Shown here piece by piece: positions 25,242 through 50,348 of a stretch of 64,000 bases of DNA. The stretch's first letter is position 1; each line of letters starts with the position of its first letter. A program made the translations under genes and the position numbers. The notes beneath the pieces were generated by a model that was not told the DNA's origin, searched no databases, and saw only the letters and a list, made by a program, of their open reading frames with translations. The stretch comes from Mesocentrotus franciscanus (lineage: Eukaryota; Echinodermata; Echinoidea; Camarodonta; Strongylocentrotidae): NCBI GenBank assembly GCA_037976565.1, contig CP137686.1, positions 960,646 through 1,024,645 of the forward strand, read 5' to 3'.

Positions 25242-25247
25242 TTTATT
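25242..25247 (-). promoter_or_regulatory. Candidate polyadenylation signal of the Tie-like gene
   Basis: AATAAA on the minus strand about 90 nt past the TAG. It fits a very short 3' UTR. AT-rich sequence makes chance AATAAA common. Confidence 0.4.
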
Positions 25248-25334
25248 TAGATTTTGACATCACATTGACGTAGCGTCGTCTGCAGTGTTGTCTTCAACAC
25301 GTTTCAAACCGTCATAGGTGTTTATAGGAGGCGA

Positions 25335-25428
25335 CTAAAAGGTTGTGTTCTCATATATTGGCTGATCTTCGTGCGTCTTTGGATTGGTTCTTGGATTGGG
25401 AGGTTGGGGGTCCGCCTTGCGTCTTTTC
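25335..25428 (-). CDS. Tie-like receptor exon 11: short cytoplasmic tail with YENT motif and stop
   Basis: 94 nt, starting in phase 2 after CTTGTTCCAG and ending at TAG (25337-25335). It begins WKRRK, a basic stop-transfer anchor directly after the TM helix, continues with a proline/asparagine-rich stretch and ends [10 protein letters not shown]. Tyr633 lies in pY-x-N context (YENT), the consensus for Grb2-type SH2 binding. There is no kinase domain. Splice phase, basic anchor and in-frame stop agree, but a longer alternatively spliced form cannot be excluded. Confidence 0.82.
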
Positions 25429-28400: not shown

Positions 28401-31400
28401 TCCCGGAGTGAGGGGGCCGGGTTGCAAGGCTAAAAACCTCTTAGCCCCGCAAAAAACCAGGTGTGAAAACGGTAAAGGCCTTTGTTGCGCCATGCGTATA
28501 GAATTACGCTTTGTTCTGATCCTTCATCTATTCTAGGTGAAAACAAAGAAGAATACCCAGAAGTAAAGTTTAAAATACCATCTTTGATGGAGTGATTCAC
28601 TATTCACTGCACATCACACACACAAGTCCGCCCTTATATCCCGGCATTCAATCATAACATTTACATTTTGTTTGACCAATTGTAAAGTATGAACTTAACC
28701 TACTTGTTTGCGTTTGAGAAGTCATCCCAAACGACGCGTGGCTGTGTGGACCTTCGCAATCTTTGTTCCATAATGTCATATAAACTGAGTAATTAGTTTC
28801 AGGTACCACTGAGCCAAGGAAGTAACTACCAGCAGAATCAACGGGAACCTGTACTGAGCCTTCAAAAGAAACATCGGACGTTGAAGAGAAGTAGATGGAA
28901 ATGTTCGTGAAACCACTGCGACAGTTTGCACTCGCACCGTCAGCAGTTGGAAACTTCAAAGAGAAGGGGAAAAAAGTTTAAAGAAAATGTTTTTTGAATG
29001 GCAAAACGTATGTATCTGGTTGACTATTCCTGGAAAATACCCCTAGGACAAATACTCCCTAGGTAAATAACCCCCATAAAATTTCCCCAGATTATATCCC
29101 TTTCAAATTACCTCCTTACCCTCAGATTGATAAAAATAGGGATAGGTATCCAAAGAATTTACCTGGAGTAGTTGTCCGGGGTTTATTGTCATTAGGTAGT
29201 TTTCTTAGGGGGTAATATTGCGGGAGTATTTTGACCGAGTTGATGCTCCACAGGTGCAGAAATTACTTAGTTGTAAGAAAATGTTTTTTGTTATAAAGAG
29301 GGGTTGGAGGGAGAATGAATCGTTAAAATTACATCCATTCAAACATTGCCAATGAAAGTTTTATGATGAGGGCTCTTCTAAAACCAAACAAATGAAAGTT
29401 TTGTCTCGCCTCCTCTTCGAGAAACTTGAGTGGAAGGAAAGGGTTAGGGGGCTGCCCTGGAGATACCCTAGGATCGAACTCCTTAATCTTACCAGCCATG
29501 TAATAAGAAGCTGTTCAGGAGATAACACTTGATGAACTGTCACATGTGAAAGAACTCCAGTAGGGGCTACACGTACATTGAAACAAGAACAACGAAATGA
29601 AAATGAACAAACATAAACAATGACTATCACATTATACTTAACTGAACATGAACACTGGTACCAATTTGTTTGATTGAACTACAGTATTTAGAATAAACGA
29701 CATTAGAGACTATATATGCTTCAATGAATACACTGTCTAATGAAGAATCTTGCTTGAATGAAAGGGCCAAATTGAAAAAATTAGCACTTCTTTTTATTTA
29801 GTGGTTGATTTATTTCCTGACTTCATTTGAAATGATTGGACAGGCAAATCTTGAACTGTACCTATTTCTAAAACGTTTGCATCACTATACAATAAATGCA
29901 TACATTTACTTAGTTTTAGAGGGGTGTCAATCTTCGGATACATAGAGGGGATAATAATAAAGTATGTTTTTCTGATCAAGGTGTTTGCCCTATGCCCCTA
30001 TCCGAGGATAGACATTTAAATGATATAGACGGGTTTTGGCATTGAATAGATTTTTGTTGATGATTTGCTTCCGACATTTTTGTGGAGGTTCCCGATTAAC
30101 ATGATTGAGTAAATTAAAATGAATTTGAATGTATCGGAAGTGTGTCTAAACGACAAATAAACCTTTGGTACCAGGACAAGCTGATAAGGTGTGGGTGGTT
30201 TTGGGTTATGGAGAGGTGGATCAAAATTGTCAGAAGTGATGGGGAGGACGTCGAATGAGAACAATATTTTTATTGATCGCCATGGAGAGTGGGGAGCGGG
30301 GGCATTGTCTAATATCGCAAGCTATGTATGTGCTTGTACTCACGCAAACAAGTAGTACTAGCAGTCACATTCTCCAGAGGTCCTTCTCCTCCATCGCCAT
30401 CCCTCTCTACAGAGACACTAAACATGTAGTCCCTGTCAGGAGACAAACCATCGATCATGTGAGAAACATCTAAAGCGTTACCTCGATCAAGACGGATCCA
30501 TGGTGAAGAATCTGGGAGTACCTCCTTGTAGTATACATTGTATCCAATGAGTGGAGGATCGCCAATGTCTACCCCGGCCATCCATCCGTCCCAGGACAGT
30601 GTGATTGAAGTTTGAGTAGAGTCTTGGATCAAAGGCGGCCTTGTCAGTCGTGCTAGAACTTGATTGAGAGTGAAAGAAGAAGATATAGACCAAGTCTAGT
30701 TATTTGTCCTTTATGGTGACAATGCATACCTTCAACCAATGATAATCTAGCACATCGATACGGTGTATTTTCAACTTGAATTGTACCTTCAAAGTTCGAA
30801 ATCTTGTTTGATTATAGTTTTGGAGTTGTCTATATCTATATCTTTTGTTTCTACGTGAAAAAATATCTTGTAAATAATACGAATTTCTATTTGTGCATAG
30901 TATACTGAAAACTGAAACTTGGAGACTATGTTTAACAGTGGGTACATAGGTAGGGCTGAGCCTGTTTGTGAATGATTTTGTTGCTGTAAAGGCAGTACAG
31001 TGTGTCCTTGGAAAACGAAATCCTAAAACGGAGGGCTATTGTTATCAAGCTGTGTGATATATAACTATATTATGTATTTTCCATAAACTAGCAGATAATT
31101 TGCTATCAAAACGATACCGTGATGACATCCTTATATACACATACCGAGTCCCAACATTTTGGAAATGGCATGTAAAAAAGAAAAAGGTTTTCCCAAATTG
31201 TGGTAAAAACGTTAAAATGTTGCGATCACGTATGAACATGACCTGAAAATAACATAAAGTACAAAGCCGATGGAATTCTTGTGTACGTCATGTAGGCGTG
31301 TGATACTATCATTACACGATGGTTTTACCCAGACATGGCACAAGTGGATTTAGACATGCCATTTTCAAACGATGTGGATTAATGCCACCAATGTATCATT

Positions 31401-34400
31401 TGAAAGTACATTACTTCGACTTTAAGAAACACACAGAATCATATAGCTCCTAATTTGTTCACAATTAAACTTTTTCGAGTTTTGTAATTTCTCAATGCGT
31501 CGTACAATGGAAATTTATTTACTAATGATATATTGTTTTTCTCATAAATATATTATAACAAATTTACGTTTTCAAAAGTATGAAATTGTAGTACGAATAC
31601 AATAATATTCCTACAACTTTACGCCACAAAACACATCATTTTCATTGATCAAGTCTGTTTGAATAGAAGTACATCACCTATCTGAACAGTTCTTACCAAA
31701 CCTGCCAGCCAGACATTCTGTAAAAGAGTAATCCAGGTAACGATAAAGATTACGAGAAGAATATTTCGCTCTTTGAGTAGTGTAGGGCAACCATATCCTT
31801 CATTTCCTTCTAATTCATGTTCTCGAGAAATTCTTTGGAAAAGAGTTATAATTGAATTTGTCGATCAAGTTTAAAGAAAGTAAGGAACACCGTATCAAAT
31901 ATTGCAGTTACTTCTTCCTTTTCAATATACTGCTCTAAGGACGAGCCATGTTGGGAGGGCCACAGCCTGAAGTCTTAATAAATGCATATTTCACATTCTT
32001 ACTCTTTCTCTGCACGTTCTTTCCTTGTCCTCTTCTTCCTCTGTTTCTTGCTCCCCTCCTATTTCTTCTTCTCCTCCTTCCTCCTTTTCTTTCTTCTTCT
32101 GCCCCTCTTTCTCTCTCTTATTCCCTTTCCTCCCAATGCTCCTCTCTCCTTCTTTTCCTTTTTCTTCTCCTTTTCTTTTTTTCTTCTGCTTCCTTTCATT
32201 TCTCTCGTTCATGTTTCTTTTTATGCGTAATTCATCATCCATACTTGTTCAACAGCTTTTGTATGAATGTAGAGCTCAGATAAAATTAGTTTGTTTTCTT
32301 TATGCTGTTACTGACACATCAGTCACATTATATCGTTTCTAAATTCAATATATCCATTTCGCATTCATGTAACATCGTTTGTTTGGAGCCACAATGGCAT
32401 TGATCTATATTACTTTGACATGGAGTTAGCGCCCTTGTGACCCCAAACAGATGATATGTTAAACGTGTCCGTTAATAATTTTCTACTTTATGAATAATAT
32501 GAAGTATTAGCCCTGCATTGTTAATGATAAAACATGACCTGGGCTTCTTCTCTTTTCTACTTTCATATACTTTATTTTTGGTAGTATCTATACAAGTTTA
32601 TGTACTATTACTTCCTTTGTTAATAATCATGATTGTTAATAAAGTGATATTGAAGAAAAAAATGGAACTCCTAATTTGTTCACAATAAAACTTCCGAGTT
32701 TTGTTATTTTTTTTAACGCATCATACAATGGAAATTTATTTGCTAATGATATATTGTTTTTCTCATGAATATATTATAGTAAATTTACGTTTTTAAAAGT
32801 ATGAAATTGTAGTACGAATACGATAATATTCCTACAACTTTACGCCACAAAACACATCATTTTCATATATCAAATCTGTTTGGATAGAAGTACATCACCC
32901 CTGCGTCACCTACCTGAACAGTTCCTACCAAACCTGCCAGCCAGACATTCTGTAAAAGAGTAATCCAGGTAACGATAAAGATTACGAGAAGAATATTTCG
33001 CTCTTTGAGTAGTGTAGGGCAACCATAACTTTTTTTTTTATTTTTTACTAATTCACGTTCTCGAGAAATTCTTTGAAAAAGAGTTATAATTGAATTTGTC
33101 GATCAATTTTGGAATAAGTGACTTTTTAACGCCACTTTAAATCGTGAAAGGCTTGTTAGTCAATAACATAAAAGAACTGAAAATACATGAAACATAAAAG
33201 ATGAACATTAATGTCTGTTATGTTATTCATACCGCATCAAACCTTATATAATCAGGGAGGTATATTGGTCACTAACAATGTGAAATTTTATGATGTAAAA
33301 GTTGTCGTAAATCTTGACGGTTTCTTTGAAGTGCAATTACGGAAGCATCAGGAAAACAGAGAAGTAAGACAGAGAAGTAAAACTTGGGCAAATTTGAAGA
33401 AGAAAAAAAAAATCGCTCACATGAAATTTTCATTATGCCCTTTCAATATACGATAAACATACGCAAATGAAGCAGAAAGAAAGAGAGAGGGAGAGAGAGA
33501 GATAGCAAGAGAGAGAAAGAAAGATAGAAGATCAAGAGATGGAGATAGGGGGATTGAGAGAGAGAGAGAGAGAGAGAAAGAGAAAGAGAGAGAGATAGAG
33601 GGAGAAAGAGAGGAAGGGATGGAGAGAGATAGAAAGGGAGAGAGAGGGAGAGAGAGAGAGAGAGGTGGAGAAAGGGAGAGAGAGAGGGGGAGAGAAAGAT
33701 GGGGGGAACAGAAAGACGGACAAACAGACAGACATGCACACATTAAAAAGGAAAAGGAAAGGGGGTGAGAGCACTGTTACAAGACATAAAAGAATAGTTT
33801 TCAAATGGGTTTTATTTATCTTGCGAAGAATAACAAAAGTGAGGTGAAAAGCGCATTGTTGCAAACTCATTAATTGTTGACTTTGTATCATTTTGAAGAA
33901 ATATGTCAGTTAGAAAGGTTAAAAAGGTTTAAAAACGAGACTTTTCAAGTTATGATGGTAAATCAATCTCTTTGTGTATATAGAACATTTCCTTTCCTGA
34001 CCCAGTGGCGTTTAGACAAGACCTAATTCTTTTCCCCTTACTCTCTCTTTGTCACGCACACGCACACACACTCACGCACACACACACGCACACATGCCAC
34101 CTCTCTCTCCTATTCTCGTATATATATACTTAGCTTTGCTCCAGCCTTCCATACAGTGCCTGCGCAGTTGCCTGATGGTCGCTTGCAAGGCGCGAAACTC
34201 GGGGCAGCAACCATGTTCCATTAGTCTGCCTTATTCAATATATATATATATATATATATACACTTCCAGCATCTTTCTTAAACTTTTATTTATTAAATGT
34301 AAATGTACACTCATATTTAACTCGACATGCTCATGATTACCATCTTAATAATCCCAAAGTTTAAGAAAGATGCTGGAAGTGTTTTGGAAGTGTACTTATA

Positions 34401-35201
34401 CATAAAAATGGCAGTTTGGAGCGTATGTATATCATAAACCTTTAACGTTTTTAATTGACGAAATAACGGGTTCGAATTTGCAAGATAGTTAGAGTGTGTA
34501 CAAATACAATTGACCAATTTGACCAATCAGAGGCCTATAATCTAGACATGTGGTATATGAATATTATTATTAACCTCACTCCAGAAATCTAGCCATCTGA
34601 TTGGTCAAAATTGTCTTTGTGCGAGCGCCAGACACCATACAGTGCTTTTTGTCTGCGATTCCCAAATGATTAAAACTTGTCAATTAGACACCACGGACCA
34701 GATATTTGGAATAACTTACCAAACCATATTAAAACTAGGACATCCCTTTATTCATTTAAAGCTTATATGAAAAAATATTTGTTATCTCAGTATAGCTTGC
34801 TAGATCTTACATAGAAATTTGGAATAATCTAATTTGTTATGTCTTGAATTGTTCTGTTTTTGTCAACAGGAATGGACCCTGCATACATTTAATATTATCA
34901 CCCGTAACTGAAACCACCACACAATTAATATCATGGTATTAGTCTTTTATTGTTCCACCAAGCTAAAGCTTTGCACTATGCACAAATGCACAAATGCACT
35001 TCTCAACACGAAACATGTCACTAAATATACTTTGTTATTTTCACTCAAAATTTTATTTGTTAAATCGGCCGAGGCCACGGTCATCATCACGGTCTCCTGC
35101 TTTTTCCTTTGTAAGAAACTTGCTAAACATAGATATCCATTCTCCCCCTTATTTCTTATTTTTATGCAGATTATGTTTTCACGATGGTTTGGCCCAAATC
35201 A

Positions 35202-35232
<31 letters not shown>

Positions 35233-38200
35233 TTGCTTGTATTTTAACTAGAAACATATTTTGTCAAACTTACATGTTACTCATTATATTTATTTGTATG
35301 ATGTTTCTTTGTATTGATGTGAAAAATTGGAAATAAAACAAACAAACAAACAAACATACTACGGACTGCCGGGCGGTATGGTGAAAAATATTGACCGGGC
35401 ATAGTATTATGTCTTTGTACGCGCGCGCACAGCTATGGTAATTTAGATACGCGGGCGCGCGGACTGCACCATATCATACATGTACACTGAACGAAATTTC
35501 GAAAGAGCGATCGATGAGAATTACGTTACGTACCATAATTCATCTGTCTTTGAAATTAATTTCTGAGCTAACGAAGGATGCGGTATATATAAAAAAAATG
35601 TTGACTGCTTTGAGGGGCACGGTAAAAACCATGGCCCTCGGTGATCTCGCAACTGTGCTTTGCCCCGAGACGACAAATCTAGCCATCTGATTGGTCGAAA
35701 TTGAGTCGTGATTTTAGCCATGCCCGCCTACCAGTCAATAGTCTTTTAAAAAATGCCCTCATGCCCGCCTACCAGTCATTAGTCTTTTAAAAAATGACCG
35801 CATGCCACGGTTAATGGCCGCATAAATAAATTCTGGCGAGATCCCCATTGGTTTACGTGTAAAACATTTCTTTGTGCGAGCGTGAATACCATACAGTGTG
35901 TGTGCGATTTGGTCGCTACATTTTAGGTTTTTTCGACTGTAGGCCTACGTGTAATCTCCGATTTTTTAGTTTCTTAACTTTATTTTATGTCCAAAGGAAG
36001 CAATAACGGCTGAAGCAACTCTTCCTAGATTAGTTTCAACTTCTTGATGATGATCAATTACAAGACTCGATTGATTCTGCGGACAGCAAGAACACCAAAC
36101 ATTCCTTAAAATTCTCCGTAAAAATATACTACCTGCAAGTTATCAACACAGACCTCGATAGCGTAAACAAACTGTCGAATTCGGCAGTTTGATGATGATG
36201 TTCAAATATGAGGACCCCATGATTGGTAAGTCGCACGTGTATTCTTTGACTCTTTTTAATATGACTGCTTTAATATTCAAGCCATAGTTGTTTTAATAGG
36301 CTCTCGGGGACGTTACATCCTGCTATCACCCCTCGGCATGCCTCGGGGTGATAGCAGGATGTAACGTCCCCTTGAGCCTATAAAAACAACTATGCCTCTC
36401 GTAGCAGTCATTATATCTATACTAAATATTGGTGCAATATTCCTGCTCGAACATGATATTGCCCTCGAATGCCCCGAATATCGGGACTTTAAAAACTTTG
36501 GAAGGAACGGGCTGTCGCCGCAAAATACAAAAAAAAATCTAGCGATTTACTTACTTTGACAGCTACTCCCAGCCCAGCCATGCTGGCACTCAATGGAGCT
36601 TCCTGTACAGACTCCAGTAAATCGATCACACTCTCCTGATACACAGTGACATGTCTCCGTACAACTAGCTCCAAACTCACTTTGATCACATTCTAATACA
36701 TGTTTTTCAAGAAAAAATATAATTTTCATACGCAATATACTGTACAGCCAGTTAATGTAAATACCAATATATAAACGCATAACAAGAATAACATAGGAAG
36801 AAAAATCTTAGAAGTAATGATAAAGTAAAGAATATTGAAGGACAAGTTTCCGATAATAAATCAAACGAGAACCCCAATATTTTCAAATGAAGACTATTAT
36901 CATTACAAACCAACGCTATAATTATAATCAAACCTGTAATGTACCGCACTGTCTAATATGCTTTGGTAATCAAAACAACGAAATCTGAATGGATATCATA
37001 TTGCTGTCTCTCTATCTCTCTATAAGGGGTTTTCGTTTTACACGACGAGAACGTGGACCGCCACGTGTGACATCCTTTTAAGGTAATGTGACGTCCTTTT
37101 AAGGCACTGCCAGGCACAGCCCAGTGCCTTAACACAATGTCACACATGGCAGTCCACGTTCTCGTCGTGTAAAACGAAAAACCCCTTATGTCTCTCTCTC
37201 GTCTCCCACTTCCCCCTCTCTCTCTCTCTTTCCCTCCCCCACCTCTATCTTTCACTCTCCCTTTCTCCCTTGTCTATACCCCTTTACTCTTTCCTTCTCT
37301 TATCTTCCTGACATACTGGGTATATTTTTCTCTCTAGACTAGTCTAAAAACCTTCTATACTTTCGATTGCAAAATGCAACCATACATGGCATACAATATA
37401 TAACAATATTCTTTTTAACAGATCATTGTACATGTATTCATATTTTGTGAGTTAATTTTTGTTAATTGTAGTAGAAAAACTTTTTTTCATGGTTTACATT
37501 TCCTTGTGCTTGATAATTTCAATCTTTTCATTTGTGATAACTTCCGCAATTCGGCTTTTAGCCACGACGGATTTATCTCACAATATTTTTGTATATTTTG
37601 TTTGTATTTGAATGTTTACATAATGAATATTATGATCGCAGGGCCCTTAGGGAGAACAGTGTAAATGCTGATGAGGCTATTCTGGGTAAAACAATATTAT
37701 TGTTATTATTATTATTATTATTCGAGTCGTGCCAAATGAGTGAAGATCAATTGGTTAGATACCTGTAATACAGTTCAATCCTTTGTATCCTGGTGTACAT
37801 GAACACCCATAGGGATCGGGCACACAAACCTGAAGTCCACTACATGCTGTCCTATCATCTGAAATATTGTAGTCACATCTATACTCGCAATTACGACCAT
37901 AGCGATTTCCACCGCACGCTAGATAATATAGTGTTGTAGACAAAGAAGATAAAGATAATTTCAAAATGTGTAACAATTTAAATTACTAACAGCATTACAG
38001 GCACAACTTTGGATTTGGATCAATTTACTTTCTATGACCCAACCCTATTAAGTATCATTACATTCCAGAGAAGCACATAAAATCGTGACACGGGGTGGGT
38101 TTATGATTAGGGACATGAGATGATCAGGGCTTTGATCACATTTATACTTGAAATTACGACCGAAACGATTTAAACCGCAAGCTGCATATTGGATTTGAAT

Positions 38201-41200
38201 TTGAAATGCACAATAAAATTCATTGTATAACAATTTCTTTTCATTATAGATATATGAAAATAAAATTACTATCGATTTATAGTTTTATAGTTCATTTGAT
38301 AGACAATAACATGTAATTTAAAAGAAACTACCTACCCAAATAATAGTAAATATCTCAAAGAAGTCCCAATAAAAAAGAAATGTATTCCGAAAGGAACATG
38401 GTTACAGTTTTCATCAGTACATTAGGACGTAAGACAAATTGTGTTTATTCGTCTTTGGTCTTATGAGTCTTACTGGTCCAACGTCTCTAAAGGTTATGAG
38501 GATATTTCGATTTGGTCCTTTAAGTATTGAGTATCAATATTAGGGCAACTGCTCTTGCAAAATTAAAACAATCATAACATATCTATTAAGATCTTACCCA
38601 TTTCACATCCATCTCCCTGGAATCCTGGAGGACAGATGCATATCCCTGTTTGATCATGACAGATTCCTCCATTGTAACATGATGGACATAACTGGGTACA
38701 TTCACTGGATACATCATAGCGACCGGCAGAACATGCTGAAATTTAAACACCGATAACACGGTAACATTTGATACCTAATTTCCTCGAACGCTCTCTTTCA
38801 ACGAGTACTCTTGAATTACATAACTTACACGTGTATCTTTGCCTTGAAAAACCCCTCTTAATTGGATAAATACATGTATCACTATCGATATTACAACCTC
38901 CAACATCCATTCAAATTATAAAGAACGTGTCTTCTAGGATGGTTACCATGCCCTGTGCCCCTTAAACCCTCTTCGGGGGTATTATTTTGGTTGGCGGGGA
39001 TGGGGACTCCATTGAAAAAAAGGGAGGCTCGAGCCCCCTCATCCCCTTAGAACTGCACCCTGAAATAAAATATTCATAACAGTGGTCAGTGGTGCACAAA
39101 TAGGAGGTAAAGTTCTCGAAAAAGGTGAACAAATTGTGAGCTTTTTCGTTCTTTTTATGTTAGTGTGGAAGAATATTTAAAAACTCTTATGAATGGGATG
39201 GCCCTCCAAATGCCCTCATACATAAGTAACAGCTACAGGCAGGGGCAGCGATCCCGGGGGACGCTCCCCCCGGAAAATTTGAAAAAGTGCACACAAAAAA
39301 TGTATAGCAAATACTGACTAATGACTGCAACACACTTTTAGGCTCTGGAGGGCCCAAGAGTGCAGCGTTTAGAGTAATAACAATGCAAAAATTTTCTCGC
39401 TCGGTCGCTACGCTCCCTCGCATAATATCCTTCAAAATGTACAAGTAAATATTGTAGAAAATTCGTATTCTGTTGGTATCACGTAAGCACAGTTTACACC
39501 GCTATGCTCCCTCGTCCCTCGCATTTCGCCACCCCCCCCCCGGTCATGAAAAGAAATCGCCGCCCCTGGCTAAAGGTAATTGTGGACCACACATCAGGTT
39601 CTTTTTTCGAGGACAGGAACAAAGCTGTGAACTTAAATTTTGATTTATGCATATTCAATTCAATTCAATTCTATTCTATTCAATTCAATTCAATTCTATT
39701 CTATTCATTTCAATTCAATTCAATTCAATTCAATTCAACTCAACTCAATTCAATTCAATTCGGTTTTTCATCCATATTAGGACATTATTGCAAGGTTACC
39801 AATCCCCATACTGATCCTAAACACTGAAAGGTTAGTGATATTTCGGGGAAAGTTTTCTGTGCAGTCGAAATGTGACTTCCTAGACAACACTGTACGGCGT
39901 ATATTTTGAAGCTCCCACCCCTTTCCTGTTTAAAAAAAACATTAAAATAGAAAAGAAATTAAAAAATGCAAAGTACAACAGTCCTAGATGATAAAGGAAA
40001 ATTAAACTAATAGAAAGCGGGGCTTGTGAGTGGTGTATATCCAAGGTACAATATCATTTTCAAGTTTGATCGACACTTTCTTCACATTTTCTGGAATATT
40101 GAAGGTAACTACTTTTTAACCTTTTTATTTCAAAATCACGTCTACTTTTCAAAATCAAAGAGAAATACAGAATACGTCCAGGTTACTTTAATGTACAGCA
40201 CTACAGATACCATACCATGAAAGGCATATTACAAAACATACTACGTTGAACATAATAAAATACATACAAATAATTTTTGGATAAATTGGAAAATGAGTAA
40301 ATTAGATGGAAACGATTCTGAGAGGAGCACGTGGAATTCTCATGATCGTAAATTGTAATAAAGCGAATACCCTCAAATTGCTTTCCCATACCCATATAGT
40401 AGTACAATGACTCAATTTGCTAATTACCTCTAACGATCAGTCTAAGAAGGCCAGCTCTTGCCAATCCCCTCTCACCTCCCAAATGAAGCTCATAAACACC
40501 ACCATTTGAGGTATCTACCTCTCCTATGATTGTGTAGACAGTCAATTCCTCAAAGATCGTGTCATCAGAGATAGTTTTAGAAGGGTCAGTTGTACCATTA
40601 AACCTCCAGTTCTTTTCTCCCACCGTAGGAGTAACCTCAGTAAAATCAACCGTAACGTTCACATCCCCCTTGTTGACAGTCTTTGAAAACCTGCCACTTG
40701 TGGGCACAAACTTAGCTGAAAACGAAATGAATGTACTATCATGATCATGAATGTGATATGATAATATAAGAAGAAGAAGAAGAAGAAGAAGAAAAATAAA
40801 AAATACAACATAATAACACATTCACACCGACAAGACCGACACTACATCAACAACAGACCGACCAATACATTACATTACCCCCCAAATGGCCTATAATCGG
40901 TCGGCTTGGAGTCGGTGTGTTGTTTTGGCGGTGTGACTGAGGCATCATGATACAGAAAATTGTGTTCAATGGTTCCAACAATATTAAGCCAGTCGTAAAT
41001 TAGCTTCAGTTTCATATAAAGACAATAATAGAAACACGATTTTAATAACCCTTTACAGAAAGTGAAAACAGAAATATCAATTTGAAATTTAAAAACCACG
41101 CCTCCTTTTCTCAACTTGTATAAATGAAAAAAAACATTGTCTACCGGGGGACATGTAGAGATTGGTTCCAATAATAATGATGGACAAGACGTATGCTCTC

Positions 41201-42613
41201 TCTCTAGAAGGGAAAAGTGGATACTTTAAAAGTCCATTTCTACACAACAATAGTAGTCTAGAATTTCGCTTCAACTCAAACTCAAACATACCCTTATAAA
41301 TGAGTCTATATTATTCATACTGTTTTGAAGTCAATAACAGTAATCATGCTTTAATATATTATACAATAAACATGCAGAACTTTGTAAGAAATCAAAGAGA
41401 AACAAAAAGTGAAAATTGGTAGCTACAATCGCGAGGCTTCTCTTATCAAATATACTTAGTCTGAATACGAAAAACGATTATTTCTAATTACCATCAGATC
41501 TCAAGAAGACTGTCGGTACAACTGAGCGTTCTCCATTCAGCGATGCAGCACAGTAGAAGGCACCATACGACCTGTGATCGGTCTCCAGATCTATTCTGTA
41601 GGCTTGAACTGGTGGATTACCAGCATTGAAGGGGATACTGCCTGGCGGATCAGCATTAGCTGGGTCATTTATATCATTGTATACATAGACATACCTCCCT
41701 CTAGTCACAAGAGCATTCAAAGAAGGAGAACTCTTGTAGCACTTAAAGAAAGGGTTTCCAGTCTCTGTTTTTGTATATCCTCTACTAGTGGTAGATATAT
41801 AAAGAGATGCCGATGCTGAAAATCAAGCAGATGAACAACTGTGAAAATCGATCGACATAACCAAGAAAGGAATGAAAAAAAATCAGATCGTATAAGCAGC
41901 ACATATATTTTTTTTACTCATTCTGATATTTAGACAGGGTGACTCATTATCACCAATAATGGTGGTCTTCCATGAGCCCCTGTTAAACATAATAAGAAAC
42001 AATAGTTTAAAAAAACATATATAATTATAATAACAAAATCATGAACATAAACTCATAACAGCAACAAAGAATAAGTAAGAACATGTATAGACAAATACAC
42101 AAAGTATTTGGTATCAACGTAATGAATGAATGGTTTGTTTGTTTTGTTTTGCTTTGCTTTTTTATTCAAGAAAACGTTGTTGCATATTTATAATGGATAG
42201 ATGGATAGATAAATGGTATTTATTGATTCATTTCCATGTATCGCAGTTACAAGTAAATGAATTGCACATGAATAAAACATTGATGGAAGAGACAAGTATA
42301 CATTTCAGGAGATATCACAGTAACAAGTAACTGAATTGAACATGAATAAATCGATGGAAAAGACAAGTATACATTTCAGGAGATATCACACTACAATCTA
42401 CATAATTATGAAGAGCGTGTACATGTATACTATATTATACCATTAGTCTTATACAATATTACAATTTAAAAGTTTTAGTTAAAAAATGAAAGAGAGATGA
42501 ATAGATTCAGAGAGATGGGAAAACATGAGAGAGATGAATAGATTCAGAGAGATGGGAAAACATGAGAGAGAGAGAGAGAGAGAGAGAGGGGGAGAGAGAG
42601 GGAGAGAGAGGGA

Positions 42614-42704
<91 letters not shown>

Positions 42705-45700: not shown

Positions 45701-48700
45701 CGTTCTCGACTCTAAATCCTTGTCTGAATTCAGTTACCCCTCGCGAAGCGCGAAGCTTTGACGTTTCATTACATTATTAGAGAAAGAAGACGATTCGTTG
45801 TACCGTTCCTGACTCTTAATTCTTGTTTCCCCCCATCCCGCGCGAAGCGCGGAAGCTTTGACGTTTCATTATAAATTATTAGAGAAAGGATACCGTTCTC
45901 GACTCTAAATCCTTGTCTGAATTCAGTTTCACCCCTCCGCGCGAAGCGCGGAAGCAGTTTCATTAAATTATCAGGGAAAGGATACCGTTCTTGACTCTAA
46001 ATCCTTGTCTGAATTCAGTTTAACCCCTTCCACGCGATGCGCGGAAGCTTTGACGTTTCATTACATTGTTAAAGAAAGAAGACGATTCGTTGTACCGTTC
46101 TCGACTCTTAATCCTTGTATAAACTCAGTTCCCCCCCCCCTTCCTGCGCGAAGCGCAGAAGCTATGACGTTTTTTTAATAAGACAAAGAAGACGATTCGT
46201 TGTTACCGTTCTCGACTCTTAATCCTTGTCTGAATTCAGTTTTCCCCCTCCCGCACAAAGCGCGGAAGCTTTGACGTTTCATTAAATATTTTTATTATTA
46301 AAGAAAGAAGACGATTCGTTGTACCGTTCTCGACTCTTAATCCTTGTATAAACTCAGTTCCTCCCCCCCCCTTCCGCGCGAAGCGCGGAAGCTTTGAAGT
46401 TTCATTAAATTATCAGAGAAAGAAGACGAATCGTTGTACCGTTCTCGACTCTAAATCTTTGTCTGAATTCAGTTCTTTCAGAGAAAGAAGACGACTCTTC
46501 ATCCTTGTCTAAATTCAGTTTTTCCCCCTCCCGCGCGAAGCGCGGAAACTTTGACGTTGCATTAAATTATTAGAGAAAGAAGACGATTCATTGTACCGTT
46601 CTCGGCTCTTAATCATTGTCTGAATTTTCAATAAATAGTCACAGTTCATACGGAAAAAAAATTGCCGGCCGACCGACATATTAATACATCTCACCGACTT
46701 CAAACTTCTGCATTGATATAGTACACGAGGATCGAGCAAGAATACCGACACACCTGACCCGACACAGCAACATATCTATGCTTATCTTTCTTGCTCCCTT
46801 GACGAGGCGACTCCACCCAACAACCCCCTCTCTTACTCCCACCCCTCCTCTCTCAGGCTCTTACCCCCTTCTCCCTCTCCTCTCTTTCATCCCAGTTTCT
46901 TTTGTTTCCCTTTTCTCTTTTTTTTCTTCTTATCTCCTTTTCTTTCTTTTTCTTTTCTTTCCTCTCCTTCCTCTTTTCTTTTTCTCTTTTTTTCTTCTCT
47001 TCTCTTTCCTTTCTTTTTTTCTTTTCTTTCCCTTTCCCTTTCCTTTTTCCCCTCCCCCTTTTCTCATTTTCCCGACGGCAGCGCAATTTTACCGACAATA
47101 TCCTGACAGGTGGGGTGTCGCACCCCCCCCCCCCCTCTAGCGACGCCCCTGGGTGCAACCTGCCACACGCTTCTACCTCTTGGTTGCTTTGATCCATTGC
47201 CGAAAATATTTTGGCACCTATCATCCCCCCCAACCACGGATACAAATCGACACCCCTGCACATAGGTCATATCGACGACTTTCCAATGCTGGCAATTTCG
47301 ATTGAGTAAGAGCGGACCTGAGCGGTTGCATAACTATGGTAATCCTTTCTGAAGATAATCCTCAAAGCACGTTTTCGTAATCTTTCTTGGCGTTGTCTTT
47401 GTGCACCAGTGAGCCTCCAAACTGGATTTGCATATATTGGGCGAATATAGCCAACGAAAATAGCTGTAAGAAGATAATTTTCGAGAATAATGGAAGACTG
47501 ATTAACTGGTTCTCTAGAAAAGCAAATGTCCATTTTAATACGCTTTGTAGGATTCAATTGCATTTTATTAATATCAGCCCATAAAGAGAGACATTCTGCA
47601 GCTTCTTGCATGTTTGAAATTTGGCTTGATTTACGACACTCAACTAGGGTTAGATCATCGACATATTTAAACATATGTATGCTTTCAGAAAATTTGAAAT
47701 AATTTATCATCACAAGAAAAATTAAGGGTCCAAGTTTCGTACCCTGAGGCACACGTGCATTTATTTGACACCATTCTCTTTGTTTGTGCTCAGAGAGAAA
47801 ATCAGAAATCCAGTAAACTACCGCTGGTCGTACACCAATTTCAATTAACTTTTTGATGGCAACTGTGTGATCTATTTTATCAAACGCTTTAAATATCTTG
47901 ATATAACATTGTAGTATAGACGGTAATTAGTTTTTAAATCCGATGAAGAGTAACTATTAGCATATTTCGGTATGTATCAGATTTTGAAAAAAAGCAACAT
48001 ATACTTTTGAGAGTTCATAAACAAAGTATAGAAACTACTTAGGCTCAGTTAAAGGCATCGTTTAACAATGTTAAATCTGAGATGCACGGCCCTACGTGTT
48101 ACCAGTGTCCATATGGTGTAATATTGAAGCCCTAAACAAAATCGCGCTTCAAATTGATCGAGAACTGCCTCAAAAAAGTAAAAATCTTTGAGTGACCGGT
48201 TTTACCATACTCGTTTTCCCCAATGGACTGCAGTGTTATGAAAACCGTTAGGAAAACGCAAACTTTGGTTTCGATTTCCAATCATAAATATCTTGATAAT
48301 CAGACAGGCGATCGGCTTGTAAAAGTCATGGGGTTCCTGACTGACCCACAGGTTTATAATTATCATTGCAGCATGAGCTAAATCCAGGATTTTGTTTCAG
48401 AATCTGAGACAAAGTTACCGGATCCCTTTAAAGAGAAGGTTGAGTTCTGGGAAGAGGAAATGTAATTGGTGAGCGTTATCATTGTTATTATGCAAGTGTG
48501 GAAGAACATCAGATTAAAAATGTTCCCTGAAAAGCATGGCTCTTCAAATAACTTAATATTCTAAATATGGCATGAAACAGCATAACAATCGGGACGGATT
48601 TTTGTGCCACATATTCGTGTAGTCCCATATACATCTTTCTGTGTACAGTGCTTGTAACTTTACCAAGACTGGGCCAAATTTCTTATCATTTTGATGATTC

Positions 48701-50348
48701 CAGAACCTTGCAGTACACACCAATACTTATATGCTAGATGATCAACCTTTTCTGATCAATTCCACACTGTTTCTTTCACAATGCAATCGCATGACCAGAA
48801 CTCAAATTTATCTTTAAGAAAGACATTAGGGATACCAAAATTGTTATAGGCCTATACATATTTACAACAACAAAATATTACAGGATAATAAATTACTGGA
48901 TAATATGCAAATAGATACATGTAATCTAGTATAGCAATTGAATGTACACTCTTAAATAACAATAAATATACAAATATATTTATAACTGATAATAAATTAT
49001 AATAATTAATAATAATAAATCGTCCTACATTCATGGCTAAGAAACAGACAATCAAACATTTTGTGCAAGCATGACAATTACAAATGTCATATCCTTGACA
49101 CTTCAAAAATAAAAAGCGTCAAGTGAAATTTTCCTAGCAATGAGGATGTATATGAATACCACATTTTATCATGTTGTTCTGCAAGCGCATCATTAACCAA
49201 TCGTTTGATTTTTACAAGAGAAATGTGCTGGAAAGCTAAAAGGAATTTAAGTAAAACTTTAGTTAAGACACTAAACAAAATTCCTCTTGTCATTTTATCT
49301 TATTGGGAATCGATATTGCAAGATTGTTTGAACATGTATTTAAAGGTGTTCACAGAGCTTGCCATTCTCAATGATCTGTCCAACTGATTCCATGCTATAA
49401 TTGAAGATACGAGGGGTCTATGTTTAAAGCATTCTGTTTTATACTTTGGCACAGAAAGTAAACCTTCACCTGCCTGTCTCGTATTATACTGATGAATGTC
49501 ACTTACTTTAATTAAACTTTCTTGTAAATAGGATGGCGTCACATTATGTGTGCATTTGTACATCATATATTATCACGCTGAAATTCAAAACGTTTCTCAA
49601 TTGGCATCCATTTCAGATTGCTAATCAACTCACTTGATGGAGTCTCGTAAATTTTGTTTCAAATTTTTCTAGCAGCTCGTTTTAAACTTTCTTGAGTTTA
49701 TCCGTTTGTTTCTAATACCGATTTGACCACACAGAGGAACAAATCAAAGTGAGGCAATACGAGTGCATTATAAAGCAAATTTAAAGATGTTATTGGTAAA
49801 TAGTCCTTTAGTTAGCTCGTTTTATTACACTGATATTTCTTTGCGTTACTTTTGTTACTTTGTCAACGTGCTTGGACCAATTCAATTCTTCATCGATTAA
49901 TATACCAAGACATTTCAGTACCTTTCCATTTACAGAAAAGTTGAAGGTTGCTATTTTGTTTAAATTTGCACGCATCTTAATCTGAGAGCCCAAATCGAAC
50001 AAATTCTTTAATTTTCCGCTATGACGTTCATGTACATTATAAAAAAAAGGAAAATGGTTTTAATATAAGAGCTTATATGAGACACAACTTCCAAATGCTG
50101 TTTACACAAAGAGATATCTCTTTGGTTTACACCACCATAATTTCAATCAATTATTATACAAAGCCAATTTGAAACCCAGTTATTATCAGCGTTTTAAATA
50201 AACTGCTAAAATGAAAACCGCCATTCGTCATATAAAAACATAATGTTTCATGTATGTATCAGGATATTACCGTGTTTTACAACTTTATTCGCTTACCTCC
50301 ATGAACATGCAGCATTACAACGCCAAATATTATCCTCATAAAATCCAT
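25335..50348 (-). CDS. Tie-like receptor without a kinase domain: 2 Ig, 3 EGF, 2 FN3, TM, short YENT tail
   Basis: Eleven coding exons (50348-50297, 41815-41492, 40715-40428, 38735-38598, 37918-37763, 36692-36555, 30658-30344, 29566-29493, 28953-28704, 26409-26322, 25428-25335) total 1917 nt, 638 residues plus TAG. Phases match at every junction (1 for seven junctions, then 0, 1, 2). Domains: signal peptide 1-17; Ig-like 18-125; Ig-like 126-221; EGF 222-267, 268-319 and 320-365; FN3 366-470; FN3 about 471-578; TM about 587-606; tail 609-638. Tie1/2 hallmarks seen: [10 protein letters not shown] in EGF2, LRLIVR closing Ig2, CICPPGF in EGF1, CDRF in EGF3, and GGEG...LPPTG between FN3 modules. 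Family knowledge: Tie receptors are angiopoietin-type tyrosine kinases with three Ig, three EGF, three FN3 and a kinase. Here the third Ig, third FN3 and kinase are missing. A role as a ligand-binding co-receptor, decoy or adaptor-recruiting receptor is inference. Confidence 0.87.
25580..25800. repeat. (att)n-type microsatellite block
   Basis: Imperfect tat/att trinucleotide repeats with atc and gtt interruptions, in the last Tie-like intron. The long ORF predicted across it is an artefact of repeat composition. Confidence 0.9.
26030..26155. repeat. (ga)n purine-rich microsatellite
   Basis: agagagag runs with gacagaaa interruptions, inside the Tie-like intron between the TM and tail exons. 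Confidence 0.9.
26322..26409 (-). CDS. Tie-like receptor exon 10: transmembrane helix
   Basis: 88 nt, phase 1 to phase 2. Acceptor CTTCCTAG|GT, donor CCATG|GTAAGC. It encodes [10 protein letters not shown] followed by an uninterrupted hydrophobic run ([16 protein letters not shown]), a single TM helix at about residues 587-606. The phase fits both neighbours, so this exon was found from phase and hydrophobicity rather than ORF length. Confidence 0.88.
26729..27309. mobile_element. 581 bp MITE with ~60 bp imperfect terminal inverted repeats
   Basis: gcctcggtcacacctttgcg at 26732 pairs with cgcaaaggtgtgactgaggc at 27309 and pairing continues for about 60 bp. The core has further foldback (caggcgatggtaatt... 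with its inverse, and several cttgatatcaag palindromes). It is nested in the 26619-28472 element. Confidence 0.85.
27930..28026 (+). pseudogene. Captured C2H2 zinc-finger fragment, frameshifted
   Basis: The plus strand carries cacactggagagaaaccc, the THTGEKP linker of C2H2 zinc fingers, followed one frame off by [18 protein letters not shown]...CYH. The CxxC half and hydrophobic core of one finger are clear. A single-base shift between linker and finger, the loss of the usual His spacing and an adjacent stop-rich context mark it as dead. It lies within a transposon-like element. Confidence 0.8.
28704..28953 (-). CDS. Tie-like receptor exon 9: remainder of FN3 domain 2
   Basis: 250 nt, phase 0 to phase 1. 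Acceptor TCTTTGAAG|TTT, donor ACAA|GTAGGT. It encodes [40 protein letters not shown] and a stalk-like TSQTQT. FN3 tyrosine-corner logic (PETNY) is visible. NIS and NYS are sequons. Confidence 0.9.
29493..29566 (-). CDS. Tie-like receptor exon 8: first part of FN3 domain 2
   Basis: 74 nt; starts in phase 1 after CGTGTAG and ends in phase 0 at TGGCTG|GTAAGA. It encodes [11 protein letters not shown]...LLITWL, the A-B strands of an FN3 with the conserved Trp. The exon is required because exon 9 starts in phase 0 and exon 7 ends in phase 1; 74 nt restores the frame exactly. Confidence 0.9.
30344..30658 (-). CDS. Tie-like receptor exon 7: fibronectin III domain 1
   Basis: 315 nt, phase 1-1. Acceptor CAATCAAG|TT after a pyrimidine tract, donor TTGC|GTGAGT. 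It contains the FN3 core [17 protein letters not shown] and [23 protein letters not shown]. The GGEG turn and the terminal TAS run match Tie2 FN3-1. NVTAS is a sequon. Confidence 0.93.
31446..31872. repeat. Segmental duplication, copy A
   Basis: About 430 bp starting ctcctaatttgttcacaat and ending ttataattgaatttgtcgat, nearly identical to 32667-33107. Contains micro-exon copy A. No TIRs seen, so duplication rather than transposition is likely. Confidence 0.88.
31697..31717 (-). other. Second copy of the EGF-start micro-exon, altered donor
   Basis: Same acceptor and CLAGRF coding as the copy at 32949, but the distal donor is changed. A GTAAGA inside the copied sequence would end the exon at 31697 (21 nt, frame kept). 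The distal alternative, AG|GTGATG at 31678, would break frame. It lies inside a recent duplication of about 430 bp. Confidence 0.3.
31995..32215. repeat. Pyrimidine-rich low-complexity tract
   Basis: Almost entirely C/T on the plus strand. All overlapping ORFs (Ser/Phe/Leu-rich, or Glu/Lys/Arg-rich on the other strand) are composition artefacts. Confidence 0.9.
32667..33107. repeat. Segmental duplication, copy B
   Basis: Direct-orientation partner of 31446-31872, offset about 1.22 kb. It has a small insertion (cctgcgtcac) next to the micro-exon donor and a longer poly-T. It contains the better-preserved micro-exon. Confidence 0.88.
32914..32949 (-). other. Candidate 12-codon micro-exon resembling the start of an EGF module
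   Basis: On the minus strand, CTTTTACAG is followed by 36 nt (phase 1-1) encoding (K)[11 protein letters not shown], then the donor CAG|GTAGGT. The C-x3-G-x-FG-x2-C spacing resembles the opening of Tie EGF modules. The rest of an EGF is absent. It could be spliced in without breaking frame between EGF3 and FN3, or be a relic of a fourth EGF exon. A near-identical copy lies at 31697-31717. Not included in the 638-residue model. Confidence 0.4.
33462..33735. repeat. (ga)n purine-rich microsatellite
   Basis: About 270 bp of gagaga with aaag and gggg interruptions; purine strand is plus. The overlapping long ORFs on both strands are artefacts. Confidence 0.92.
34261..34382. repeat. Inverted repeat with ~24 bp arms
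   Basis: cacttccagcatctttctta at 34261 is inverted at about 34362-34381 (taagaaagatgctggaagtg), separated by about 80 bp. A (ta)n run abuts the left arm. Confidence 0.8.
34665..35356 (+). pseudogene. LINE 3' fragment with (aaac)n tail
   Basis: Near 34690 the plus strand reads [17 protein letters not shown] and then [10 protein letters not shown], the terminal motif of CR1/RTE-like LINE RTs. About 500 bp of 3' UTR-like sequence (with a (ta)n at 35200-35227) and an aaataaaacaaacaaacaaa tail follow. 5'-truncated. Confidence 0.75.
36257..36415. repeat. Near-perfect foldback of ~160 bp
   Basis: ggggacgttacatcctgcta at 36307 and its inverse at 36350-36369 flank a cctcggcatgcctcgg centre. Pairing extends outward through tagttgttttaatagg and the atgactgc/gcagtcat ends. 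It would form a long hairpin in the intron just 3' of EGF exon 6 (36692-36555). Confidence 0.9.
36555..36692 (-). CDS. Tie-like receptor exon 6: EGF-like module 3
   Basis: 138 nt, phase 1-1, acceptor GTATTAG|AA, donor CAAA|GTAAGT. It encodes [17 protein letters not shown], then [10 protein letters not shown] and [10 protein letters not shown]. The CDRF motif and the final GWxGxxC match Tie EGF3. In Tie receptors a third Ig domain follows; no such exon was found between here and 30658. Confidence 0.93.
37022..37189. repeat. 168 bp foldback MITE
   Basis: ataaggggttttcgttttac at the left and its inverse at the right, with pairing continuing through cacgacgagaacgtggac. A repeated gtgacgtccttttaagg centre. 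No coding content. Confidence 0.9.
37625..37722 (+). repeat. SINE 3' end with (att)n tail
   Basis: gcagggcccttagggagaacagt ... gggtaaaacaat is followed by tattattattatt repeats. 5'-truncated SINE in the intron before Tie-like EGF exon 6. Confidence 0.55.
37763..37918 (-). CDS. Tie-like receptor exon 5: EGF-like module 2
   Basis: 156 nt, phase 1-1. It encodes [15 protein letters not shown], a longer loop, then [19 protein letters not shown]. The DPYGCSC...G(W/Y)KGLxC block is the most diagnostic Tie1/2 feature in the window. Donor ACAG|GTATCT is slightly weak. A degenerate copy of this exon lies upstream at 38095-38203. Confidence 0.95.
38095..38203 (-). pseudogene. Degenerate duplicate of Tie-like EGF-2 exon
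   Basis: After an ATGCAG acceptor-like site the minus strand reads [16 protein letters not shown], clearly a copy of [16 protein letters not shown] from exon 5 (37918-37763). The second EGF cysteine is Phe, the [10 protein letters not shown] half is lost, and no donor follows. I read it as an exon duplication that has decayed. The upstream exon 4 joins exon 5 directly in phase. Confidence 0.82.
38598..38735 (-). CDS. Tie-like receptor exon 4: EGF-like module 1
   Basis: 138 nt, phase 1-1. The spacing is ACSAGRY...[19 protein letters not shown], then [12 protein letters not shown]. NGGxCHxxTGxCICPPGF is almost the Tie EGF1 signature. Acceptor AATTTCAG|CA, donor ATGG|GTAAGA. Confidence 0.94.
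39240..39568. mobile_element. 329 bp hAT-type MITE with 8 bp target duplication
   Basis: Starts CAGGGGCAGCGATCC, ends ATCGCCGCCCCTG. The flanks are GCTACAGG (39232-39239) and GCTAAAGG (39569-39576), 7 of 8 matching. A second truncated copy of the left part lies at 58234-58420. Confidence 0.85.
39652..39763. repeat. (caatt)n pentanucleotide array
   Basis: Tandem caattcaattcaatt with ctatt and caact variants, about 22 units. Confidence 0.95.
40428..40715 (-). CDS. Tie-like receptor exon 3: Ig-like domain 2
   Basis: 288 nt, 96 codons, phase 1-1. It begins after TTTTCAG and encodes [32 protein letters not shown] and the closing LLRLIVRG. The VxKGD start and the GGVY...LRLIVR end match the cysteine-poor second Ig domain of Tie2. 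N-glycosylation sequons (NVT, NGT) are present. Confidence 0.92.
40817..40948. repeat. Short foldback with cacaccg ends
   Basis: attcacaccgacaagaccgac at the left and gtcggtgtgttgttttggcggtgtgac at the right pair imperfectly. The terminus resembles the gcctcggtcacacc end of the MITE at 26729. Confidence 0.6.
41492..41815 (-). CDS. Tie-like receptor exon 2: Ig-like domain 1
   Basis: 324 nt, phase 1-1, acceptor TTTTCAG|CA, donor GATG|GTAATT. It contains FFKCYKSS (first Ig Cys), [10 protein letters not shown] and [16 protein letters not shown] (second Cys after a tyrosine-corner-like motif). The latter parallels the GAYFCEG segment of Tie2 Ig1. A phase-1-flanked single-domain exon is usual for extracellular modules. 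Confidence 0.88.
42479..42752. repeat. Long (ga)n microsatellite with upstream 38 bp tandem duplication
   Basis: From about 42563 to 42720 the strand is almost pure ga, including an unbroken run of over 70 bp. Directly upstream, the 38 bp segment agagatgaatagattcagag... is present twice. Located in intron 1 of the Tie-like gene. Confidence 0.95.
43029..43180 (-). pseudogene. LINE RT C-terminal remnant (3' part of the split copy)
   Basis: Minus-strand [11 protein letters not shown] and following residues continue the motif (R-R-Y-D-L-C...FF-K) found at the end of the fragment at 47267. The LxxRRxxLCxxFFK element is typical of the C-terminus of CR1-like RTs. The two parts abut the duplicated CACATAGG. 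Confidence 0.82.
45484..46620. repeat. Tandem array of ~110 bp units with a GCGCGAAGCGC palindrome
   Basis: About ten units. Each includes ccgcgcgaagcgcgg, aagctttgacgtttcatt, a gacgattcgttgtaccgttctcgac segment and ctaaatccttgtctgaattcag. Units vary by small indels and truncation. Confidence 0.93.
46778..47080. repeat. Pyrimidine-rich low-complexity tract
   Basis: ttctttttcc-type sequence on plus. It gives long spurious ORFs on both strands. Lies inside the nested hAT element. Confidence 0.9.
47267..47910 (-). pseudogene. LINE reverse transcriptase fragment (5' part of a split copy)
   Basis: Minus strand: [25 protein letters not shown], then [17 protein letters not shown] and the catalytic [11 protein letters not shown], followed by the C-terminal [13 protein letters not shown]. 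An intact RT core, truncated upstream at about 47910. It is separated from its C-terminus (43180-43030) by the 4.07 kb hAT-like insertion. Confidence 0.9.
48049..48434. mobile_element. piggyBac-like MITE, copy 1
   Basis: About 380 bp flanked by TTAA (48049 and about 48431), with AGGCATC/GGATCCCT-type short inverted ends. More than 90 percent similar by eye to 63555-63954. No ORF. Confidence 0.75.
49290..50030 (-). pseudogene. Second decayed LINE RT fragment in Tie-like intron 1
   Basis: Minus strand: [20 protein letters not shown] (the xxxLGxxIDxxLxW motif) at 49910, then later frames with YNTRQAGEG and [20 protein letters not shown] at 49300-49566. Order and motifs are those of the RT tail of a non-LTR element. 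Frameshifts throughout. Confidence 0.82.
50297..50348 (-). CDS. Tie-like receptor exon 1: start codon and signal peptide
   Basis: ATG at 50348, then [17 protein letters not shown] and a phase-1 GGAG|GTAAGC donor. The residues form a short hydrophobic secretion signal, and the phase fits the acceptor at 41815. It is the best signal-peptide exon I found upstream of the Ig exons, but at 52 nt and without residue conservation it is less certain than the domain exons. The intron that follows is about 8.5 kb. Confidence 0.72.

Follow-up and report, generated by a model that had tools for sequence, protein, structure and literature searches.

Tie receptors are tyrosine kinases and are known mainly as kinases of the vertebrate vasculature. 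A locus of the sea urchin Mesocentrotus franciscanus, analysed here within a 64-kb stretch of DNA (the window), appears to encode a Tie-like outer part and a short tail in place of the kinase. The question is whether this is one complete gene, what has become of the missing domains, and what such a receptor might do.

Gene model and the Tie-like head

The kinase-less Tie-like gene (the focal gene) was reconstructed as a chain of 11 exons on the minus strand, 50348..25335 (Table 1). Its open reading frame of 1917 nt encodes 638 amino acids and a stop, with phases in agreement at all junctions and AG and GT at all internal exon borders; the start codon lies in the context AACCATGG. An earlier interpretation from the letters alone (the sequence-only reading) had given these 11 exons, and its coordinates, splice borders, phases and total length were all borne out, but it had missed the small exon 6b (32949..32914). 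The encoded protein comprises a signal peptide, Ig1, Ig2, EGF1-3, two FN3 domains, a transmembrane (TM) helix and a 30-residue tail. Eight of the ten introns are in phase 1, one inside FN3-2 is in phase 0, and one between the TM and tail exons is in phase 2. Phase 1 introns are usual for extracellular modules, so phase agreement is weak evidence for a single gene.

The nearest proteins, among the best 120 of 606 matches, came from S. purpuratus, Lytechinus and Diadema. Exons 1-6 were 77-91% identical to the best S. purpuratus match and exons 7-11 83-86%, which on sequence comparison is far above chance. The nearest relatives were not the same along the gene. Exons 1-5 were closest to P0002/P0003 and P0001 (A-type), with several A-type rows tied at exon 5, whereas exons 6b-11 were closest to P0010, P0011, P0014 and P0009 (B-type). 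Exon 6 was ambiguous in this respect, and its end was identical to P0010. The decayed copy of exon 5 has an intact acceptor, and its cysteine pattern is gone after the 44 aligned nt. Two reverse transcriptase fragments (RVT_1) were found in the window, at 22444-23139 (+; E 7e-23) and at 47267-47926 (-; E 7e-15), the latter inside intron 1 of the focal gene.

Table 1. Exons of the focal gene and associated features, in the order of transcription (positions in the window)
Feature	Positions	Strand	Evidence or remark
Exon 1, start codon and signal peptide	50297..50348	-	89% identity to S. purpuratus P0002/P0003
Exon 2, Ig1	41492..41815	-	77% to P0002; Ig1 also in the Tie2-like P0002 model
Exon 3, Ig2	40428..40715	-	84% to P0002
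Exon 4, EGF1	38598..38735	-	91% to P0002
Decayed exon 5 copy (EGF2-like), aligned part only	38136..38181	-	Acceptor AG; 44-nt DNA match to exon 5
Exon 5, EGF2	37763..37918	-	90% to P0002
Exon 6, EGF3	36555..36692	-	Terminal 12 residues are the start of B-type P0010
Tandem-duplicated block with exon 6b	32709..33119	-	Second copy at 31488..31881
Exon 6b, 36 nt, 12 residues, phase 1-1, AG/GT	32914..32949	-	Search E 2e-6; identical to S. purpuratus P0010
Second copy of the exon 6b block	31488..31881	-	87-95% identity in three pieces
Probable Ig3 relic, 57 nt, 19 residues, open, AG/GT, phase 1-1	30730..30786	-	Just upstream of exon 7
Exon 7, FN3-1 (B-type)	30344..30658	-	PF00041 E 5e-8; 86% to P0011
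Exon 8, FN3-2 first part	29493..29566	-	Exon chain, S. purpuratus comparison
Exon 9, FN3-2 second part	28704..28953	-	Exon chain, S. purpuratus comparison
Exon 10, transmembrane helix	26322..26409	-	83% to P0010
Exon 11, 30-residue tail and TAG	25335..25428	-	84% to P0010
Frame past TAG: 24 residues SPPINTYDGLKRVEDNTADDATSM, then TGA	25260..25334	-	13/13 residues GLKRVEDNTADDA in common with S. purpuratus P0003
AATAAA, poly(A)-signal-like hexamer	25242..25247	-	3' of the tail exon

The head of the focal gene is Tie-like, as judged from a sequence match and a fold match taken together. By sequence, residues 99-367 of the protein matched Tie2 in the PDB (4k0v, E 9e-44; 2gy5, E 1e-42). By fold, the predicted structure of the S. 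purpuratus relative P0002 (413 aa, pLDDT 80.9), modelled in place of the focal protein itself, ranked 2gy5 (E 4.6e-25) and 4k0v (E 2.4e-24) first, and the third chain followed at E 2.7e-6. The Ig1-Ig2-EGF1-2-3 ligand-binding head of Tie receptors is present in the focal gene. The sequence-only reading had taken both the EGF and the FN3 blocks as Tie-specific. This stood for the part from Ig2 to EGF3, by the match to 4k0v. The best PDB match of the FN3 pair was receptor phosphatase delta (E 1.7e-6), and Tie2 FN3-1 matched it with only 3.5 bits in the PDB sequence search, although full-length turtle TIE2 (P0042) did match exon 7 (E 6e-6). In Pfam searches of the focal protein, one FN3 domain was above the cut-off, the EGF domains were sub-threshold only, and a cytoplasmic phosphatase (PTP) domain gave no match.

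With vertebrate TIE1 and TIE2 (TEK) the focal gene shares the order Ig1-Ig2-EGF1-3, the EGF signature, the head fold, an FN3 stalk and a single TM helix. It differs from them in having no kinase, no Ig3 and no membrane-proximal FN3-3, the FN3 domains being two in number. A further difference lies in the ligand-binding surface. In Tie2, Ig2 residues 161-169 carry angiopoietin binding, as judged by alanine substitution, with Phe161 and Pro166 dominant (excerpt of PMC8294587). When Tie2 Phe161-Glu169, at the positions given in that excerpt, was placed against the focal protein by PDB alignment, none of the nine residues was identical (Tie2-focal pairs F-T, I-D, H-P, S-T, V-I, P-S, R-D, H-D and E-T), with a two-residue loop insertion making the register uncertain. 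Tie2 dimerises via its third, membrane-proximal FN3 (excerpt of PMC8560823). The name Tie receptor, strictly taken, should not be applied to the focal protein.

Missing domains and the shortened tail

For the kinase, the starfish and turtle Tie kinase domains were used as tblastn queries against the whole 64-kb window, and their best matches had E values of 2.9 and 3.2. The window extends 25 kb past the tail of the focal gene and has no assembly gap (no N anywhere). Downstream on the same strand there is an exon for a FAM69-type kinase domain (9645-9854, -; PF12260, E 5e-9), which is another kind of kinase domain and presumably belongs to another gene. With no Tie kinase match, a poly(A)-like hexamer after the tail and this FAM69-type gene further along, the kinase-less reading holds, by sequence, as far as the window reaches. 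The sequence-only reading, which proposed a Tie-ectodomain protein with a short tail and no kinase, is supported in this respect. An ORF at 12246-12782 (-), without a Pfam match, looks, by its KCPACFGTSLC motif, like the upstream exon of this FAM69/DIPK-type gene.

When FN3-3 of P0001 was used as a query, none of its eight best matches in the window lay between exon 9 and the TM exon. The sole better match (E 0.012, 63385-63224) is outside the focal gene and was rejected, and the rest had E 0.62 or worse. FN3-3 is also missing in the B-type P0009, P0010 and P0014, as read from their sequences; its absence is therefore not peculiar to the focal gene.

Ig3, normally between EGF3 and FN3-1, is absent from the focal gene save for a probable 57-nt relic. 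We searched the window with the Ig3 stretches of four relatives and the small exons of three (E up to 20, best eight matches per query). No intact Ig3 exon was found in the window by this search, and only exon 6b, its copy and a relic with the sequence TIQVENTP made sense. In S. purpuratus P0010, EGF3 is followed by the 12 residues of exon 6b and then by Ig3, whose exon begins GTIEVENTP. The eight-residue match of the relic alone had E 2.1 over the window, and the 3' half of the relic is weak, so its identity was judged from its position, immediately 5' of exon 7, and from its splice sites and phase. Ig3 thus probably survives in the focal gene only as this relic, and it seems to have been deleted within its own exon. 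Close paralogues of the focal gene keep Ig3. In the second block, the copy of exon 6b has AT where the donor GT is expected.

Comparison with the relatives shows the 30-residue tail to be the beginning of a longer family tail that has more tyrosines and is cut here by TAG. The tails of P0010 and P0011 run on to a second motif, YESL, and then repeat the unit, in full in P0011 and partially in P0010. P0003, with P0002 the nearest head match, ends in GLKRVEDNTADDAYVNVMSM, and all 13 residues of GLKRVEDNTADDA are shared with it past the TAG of the focal gene, so the stop appears to have truncated a tail that was still coding in the recent past. The only tyrosine left in the focal tail is at tail position 26, in a membrane-proximal YEN motif. 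As the TAG deprives the focal tail of the family's second tyrosine motif, the signalling capacity should be below that of the paralogues.

A YxN motif 15-35 residues past the TM helix was present in 10 of 21 tails, the focal gene included, against a mean of 1.1 under shuffling; none of 2000 shuffles reached that number, and two of the 21 (P0032 and P0126) are probably ectodomain wrongly called tail. Since the tails are related, this result shows conservation and not independent gain. Among the ten are the kinase form P0045, three of six phosphatase forms (P0040, P0125 and P0127) and tail-only members; the other 11, with no YxN at this position, include P0001, P0011, P0013 and P0022. This distribution points to homology between the short tail and the juxtamembrane region of the forms that carry an enzyme.

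These results do not agree with the earlier proposal that Ig3, FN3-3 and the kinase were replaced by a TM helix and a tail: a probable relic of Ig3 remains, B-type relatives are also without FN3-3, and the tail is a shortened form of a longer one.

Two paralogue groups in a probable single gene and its possible function

The change of nearest relatives along the gene was seen in single exons: for exon 3, identity was 77% to P0001 but 40% to P0009; for exon 7, the values were 40% and 63%, respectively. In a tree of the N-terminal half, the focal gene grouped with P0002/P0003 (96/94). In a tree of the C-terminal half, it grouped with P0010/P0011 (95/95) within the B group (100/99). Grouping with P0009 in the former (p-AU 0.0151) and with P0001 in the latter (p-AU 0.000136) was rejected, the groups for these tests having been picked after the per-exon identities were seen. 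The trees support a recombinant, with the head half and the stalk/TM/tail half drawn from two paralogue groups, and an exchange between exon 5 and exon 6b would most simply have made it. We also considered that the mosaic might lie in L. pictus rather than in the focal gene. Against this, Diadema P0004/P0006, which have an A-type head, grouped with P0001/P0013 in the C-half tree (88/89, not a strong node), so the combination of A-type head and A-type stalk looks older.

In P0003, a computed gene model in which the FN3 and TM exons are skipped, an A-type EGF3 is joined to a tail end that matches the continuation of the focal tail (13/13). The recombinant is therefore probably older than the split from S. 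purpuratus. P0002, with a head nearly identical to that of P0003, goes on with a small exon of A-type, and both forms may therefore exist in S. purpuratus. The B-type P0010 (LOC105443864) and P0011 (LOC105437973) and L. pictus P0009 and P0014 share with the focal gene the FN3-FN3 stalk and a YEN-type tail (59-84% identity over that half). The tails of all four extend past its stop point; P0009, P0010 and P0014 differ from it also in keeping Ig3, and P0009 has a B-type head where the focal gene has an A-type one. The sequence-only reading had raised the case of exons belonging to two genes. In an evolutionary sense this was half right, as the AU tests point to two paralogue groups, but several lines suggest that the two halves now form one gene.

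With modest confidence, we regard the focal gene as a single-pass receptor of the echinoid kinase-less Tie-ectodomain family, recombinant in origin, that acts as a docking co-receptor or a dampener. A co-receptor with one docking tyrosine is the most likely form. Its head would bind a ligand other than an angiopoietin that grips the known Tie2 surface, and the protein would then cluster with enzyme-bearing members of the family. The single tail tyrosine could be phosphorylated in trans and, as pYxN is the preference of Grb2-type SH2 domains, the motif could dock a protein of this type. Alternatively, the protein might compete for ligand and add little signal, as a dampener.

The main rival is decay, in which the focal gene is a hybrid paralogue that mutation has stripped of Ig3 and part of the tail and that is becoming a pseudogene. 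The deletion in Ig3 down to a probable 57-nt relic, the TAG that interrupts a partly conserved tail and the exon 6b duplication with a broken donor in one copy suit this explanation as well, and the decayed copy of exon 5 points the same way. We consider it rather unlikely, since the 11 exons and exon 6b are all open with canonical borders over 25 kb, the relic of Ig3 has retained its frame and splice sites, and identity to S. purpuratus stays at 77-91% exon by exon. The change of paralogue group between exon 5 and exon 6b could also be explained by two neighbouring fragments that are not spliced together, an A-type head-only one (exons 1-6) and a B-type one with stalk, TM helix and tail (exons 6b-11); the contigs given for S. 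purpuratus P0002 and P0011 differ in length, and phase 1 borders would match by default. Such an arrangement is unlikely: the frame is continuous in both the 11-exon and the 12-exon chains, protein searches with the relatives gave no extra terminal or first-exon match between exons 6 and 7, P0003 couples an A-type head to the end of this tail in another species, and the same plan occurs complete in two proteins, P0001 and P0013.

The co-receptor reading was also weighed against a mainly soluble or decoy receptor, whose functional product would be the head, either shed or produced through early splicing. Many models of relatives are without a TM helix, P0003 (signal, Ig-Ig-EGF3) among them, but these ends are probably those of truncated models, and the TM and tail exons of the focal gene match S. 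purpuratus P0010 at 83-84%; we hold a decoy to be quite unlikely. It is very improbable that the locus is a complete Tie kinase gene with kinase exons overlooked or joined by alternative splicing. Tie receptors are kinases and Patiria P0045 is a kinase-bearing Tie-like protein, but no kinase exon was found in a window reaching 25 kb past the tail, the tail exon is followed by a poly(A)-like signal and, further along, by another gene, and B-type relatives end in a like tail.

A Tie-ectodomain family in echinoderms

The focal gene is one of a large and little-studied family of echinoderm receptors in which a Tie-type outer part is joined to a kinase, a phosphatase or a short docking tail. The best 120 of 606 matches of a first protein search (length filter 351-1116 aa, which disfavours full kinases) and eight proteins added by a second search with a holothurian member led to 53 invertebrate proteins, tabulated with domain labels assigned by hand; four further new rows from the second search (two vertebrate Ties, a mollusc draper and a fish SCARF1) were excluded. 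At least 45 echinoderm relatives were tabulated, of which 37 had no enzyme, six a PTP, one a kinase (Patiria P0045) and one a 7TM region. The eight non-echinoderm rows include Limulus (2), Nymphon (2), Branchiostoma (2) and Ptychodera (1). A TM helix was predicted in 14 of the 37 enzyme-less models (three doubtful: P0025, P0032 and P0126); in the 23 without one, the cytoplasmic part is mostly not covered, though P0009 and P0003 end in tail sequence. P0001 and P0013 have head, FN3 domains, TM helix and tail in single proteins, and P0009 and P0014 have EGF domains, FN3 domains and the YENP tail in one model, that of P0009 being without TM.

In a tree of the heads, the focal gene adjoined S. purpuratus P0002/P0003 (91/79) in an echinoid clade of 14 rows (100/99) without any enzyme domain. 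For this tree, coverage led to the removal of P0028, P0049 and P0131, while P0010, P0011, P0014, P0017, P0040, P0074, P0130 and P0132 were also left out, and only ten vertebrate rows entered. The kinase rows need two changes and the PTP rows at least four on the starred branches, numbers that truncated models could inflate. The starfish kinase form was apart from the vertebrate kinase forms, so either the kinase and non-kinase states switched more than once or models are truncated.

A Tie-like ectodomain with a PTP was seen in P0125, P0127, P0128, P0030 (Holothuria), P0055 (Apostichopus) and P0040 (Lytechinus pictus), which their sources name as Tie-1, as RPTP kappa/epsilon/T/F-like or as uncharacterized. 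They share with the focal gene the Tie-like head and FN3 domains (the P0040 model is without EGF domains) and, in P0040, P0125 and P0127, the membrane-proximal YxN, but have the PTP domain where the focal gene has its short tail. In the PDB, the two PTP regions of P0125 matched receptor phosphatases (1e-110); of the six PTP models, only P0055 and P0125 have the pattern HC-x5-R-[ST]. P0123 (Holothuria leucospilota), with a Tie-like ectodomain and seven predicted helices, is annotated as adhesion GPCR G4 and is possibly a fused model. Neighbouring genes may have been fused in several of the PTP models and in the 7TM model. Most Holothuria rows are listed on a sequence of 60,200,511 bases, which suggests one chromosome.

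SpTie1/2 and the SpTie-like genes of S. purpuratus are probably of the same family as the focal gene; SpTie1/2 is reportedly the Tie1/Tie2 orthologue, as the title of a 2010 paper by Stevens is said to state. Transcripts of SpTie (SPU_026748 and SPU_024044) and SpTie-like (SPU_014858 and SPU_002763) are reported to be elevated in the axial organ and in coelomocytes (excerpt of PMC6494969), an indirect sign of expression. A coelomocyte proteome likewise includes a starfish Tie-2-like protein and an RPTP-F-like protein (excerpt of PMC13409769), and the P. lividus kinome names a 'Tie-1-like' receptor (excerpt of PMC10855541). We found no description of kinase-less Tie proteins as a family in the examined portions of the echinoderm and invertebrate Tie literature, subscription papers lying outside them. 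FGFRL1, which is found in sea urchin too (excerpt of PMC2806250), is the established precedent for an RTK family member that has a short tail and no kinase. It differs from the focal gene in its FGFR-type ectodomain with three Ig domains and its histidine-rich, zinc-binding tail.

Tentatively, and as a possibility that we rate well below an even chance, echinoderms may have a paired-receptor system. Tie heads would be placed on kinase, phosphatase and SH2-docking tails that often share the juxtamembrane YxN, with heads and tails recombined between paralogues, and the focal gene would be a recombinant whose seam can still be seen between exons 5 and 6b. If the Tie ectodomain is such an old module expanded in echinoderms, the vertebrate vascular kinases would be one outcome of a broader, possibly immune, family. 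The mosaic focal gene offers a direct test of head and tail exchange between paralogues.

Outside the echinoderms, Tie-like EGF heads were also seen in the chelicerates Nymphon (P0026 and P0029) and Limulus (P0037 and P0038), in listed models without an enzyme. The Nymphon rows and P0037 adjoined vertebrate TIE in the head tree (95/92), on long branches.
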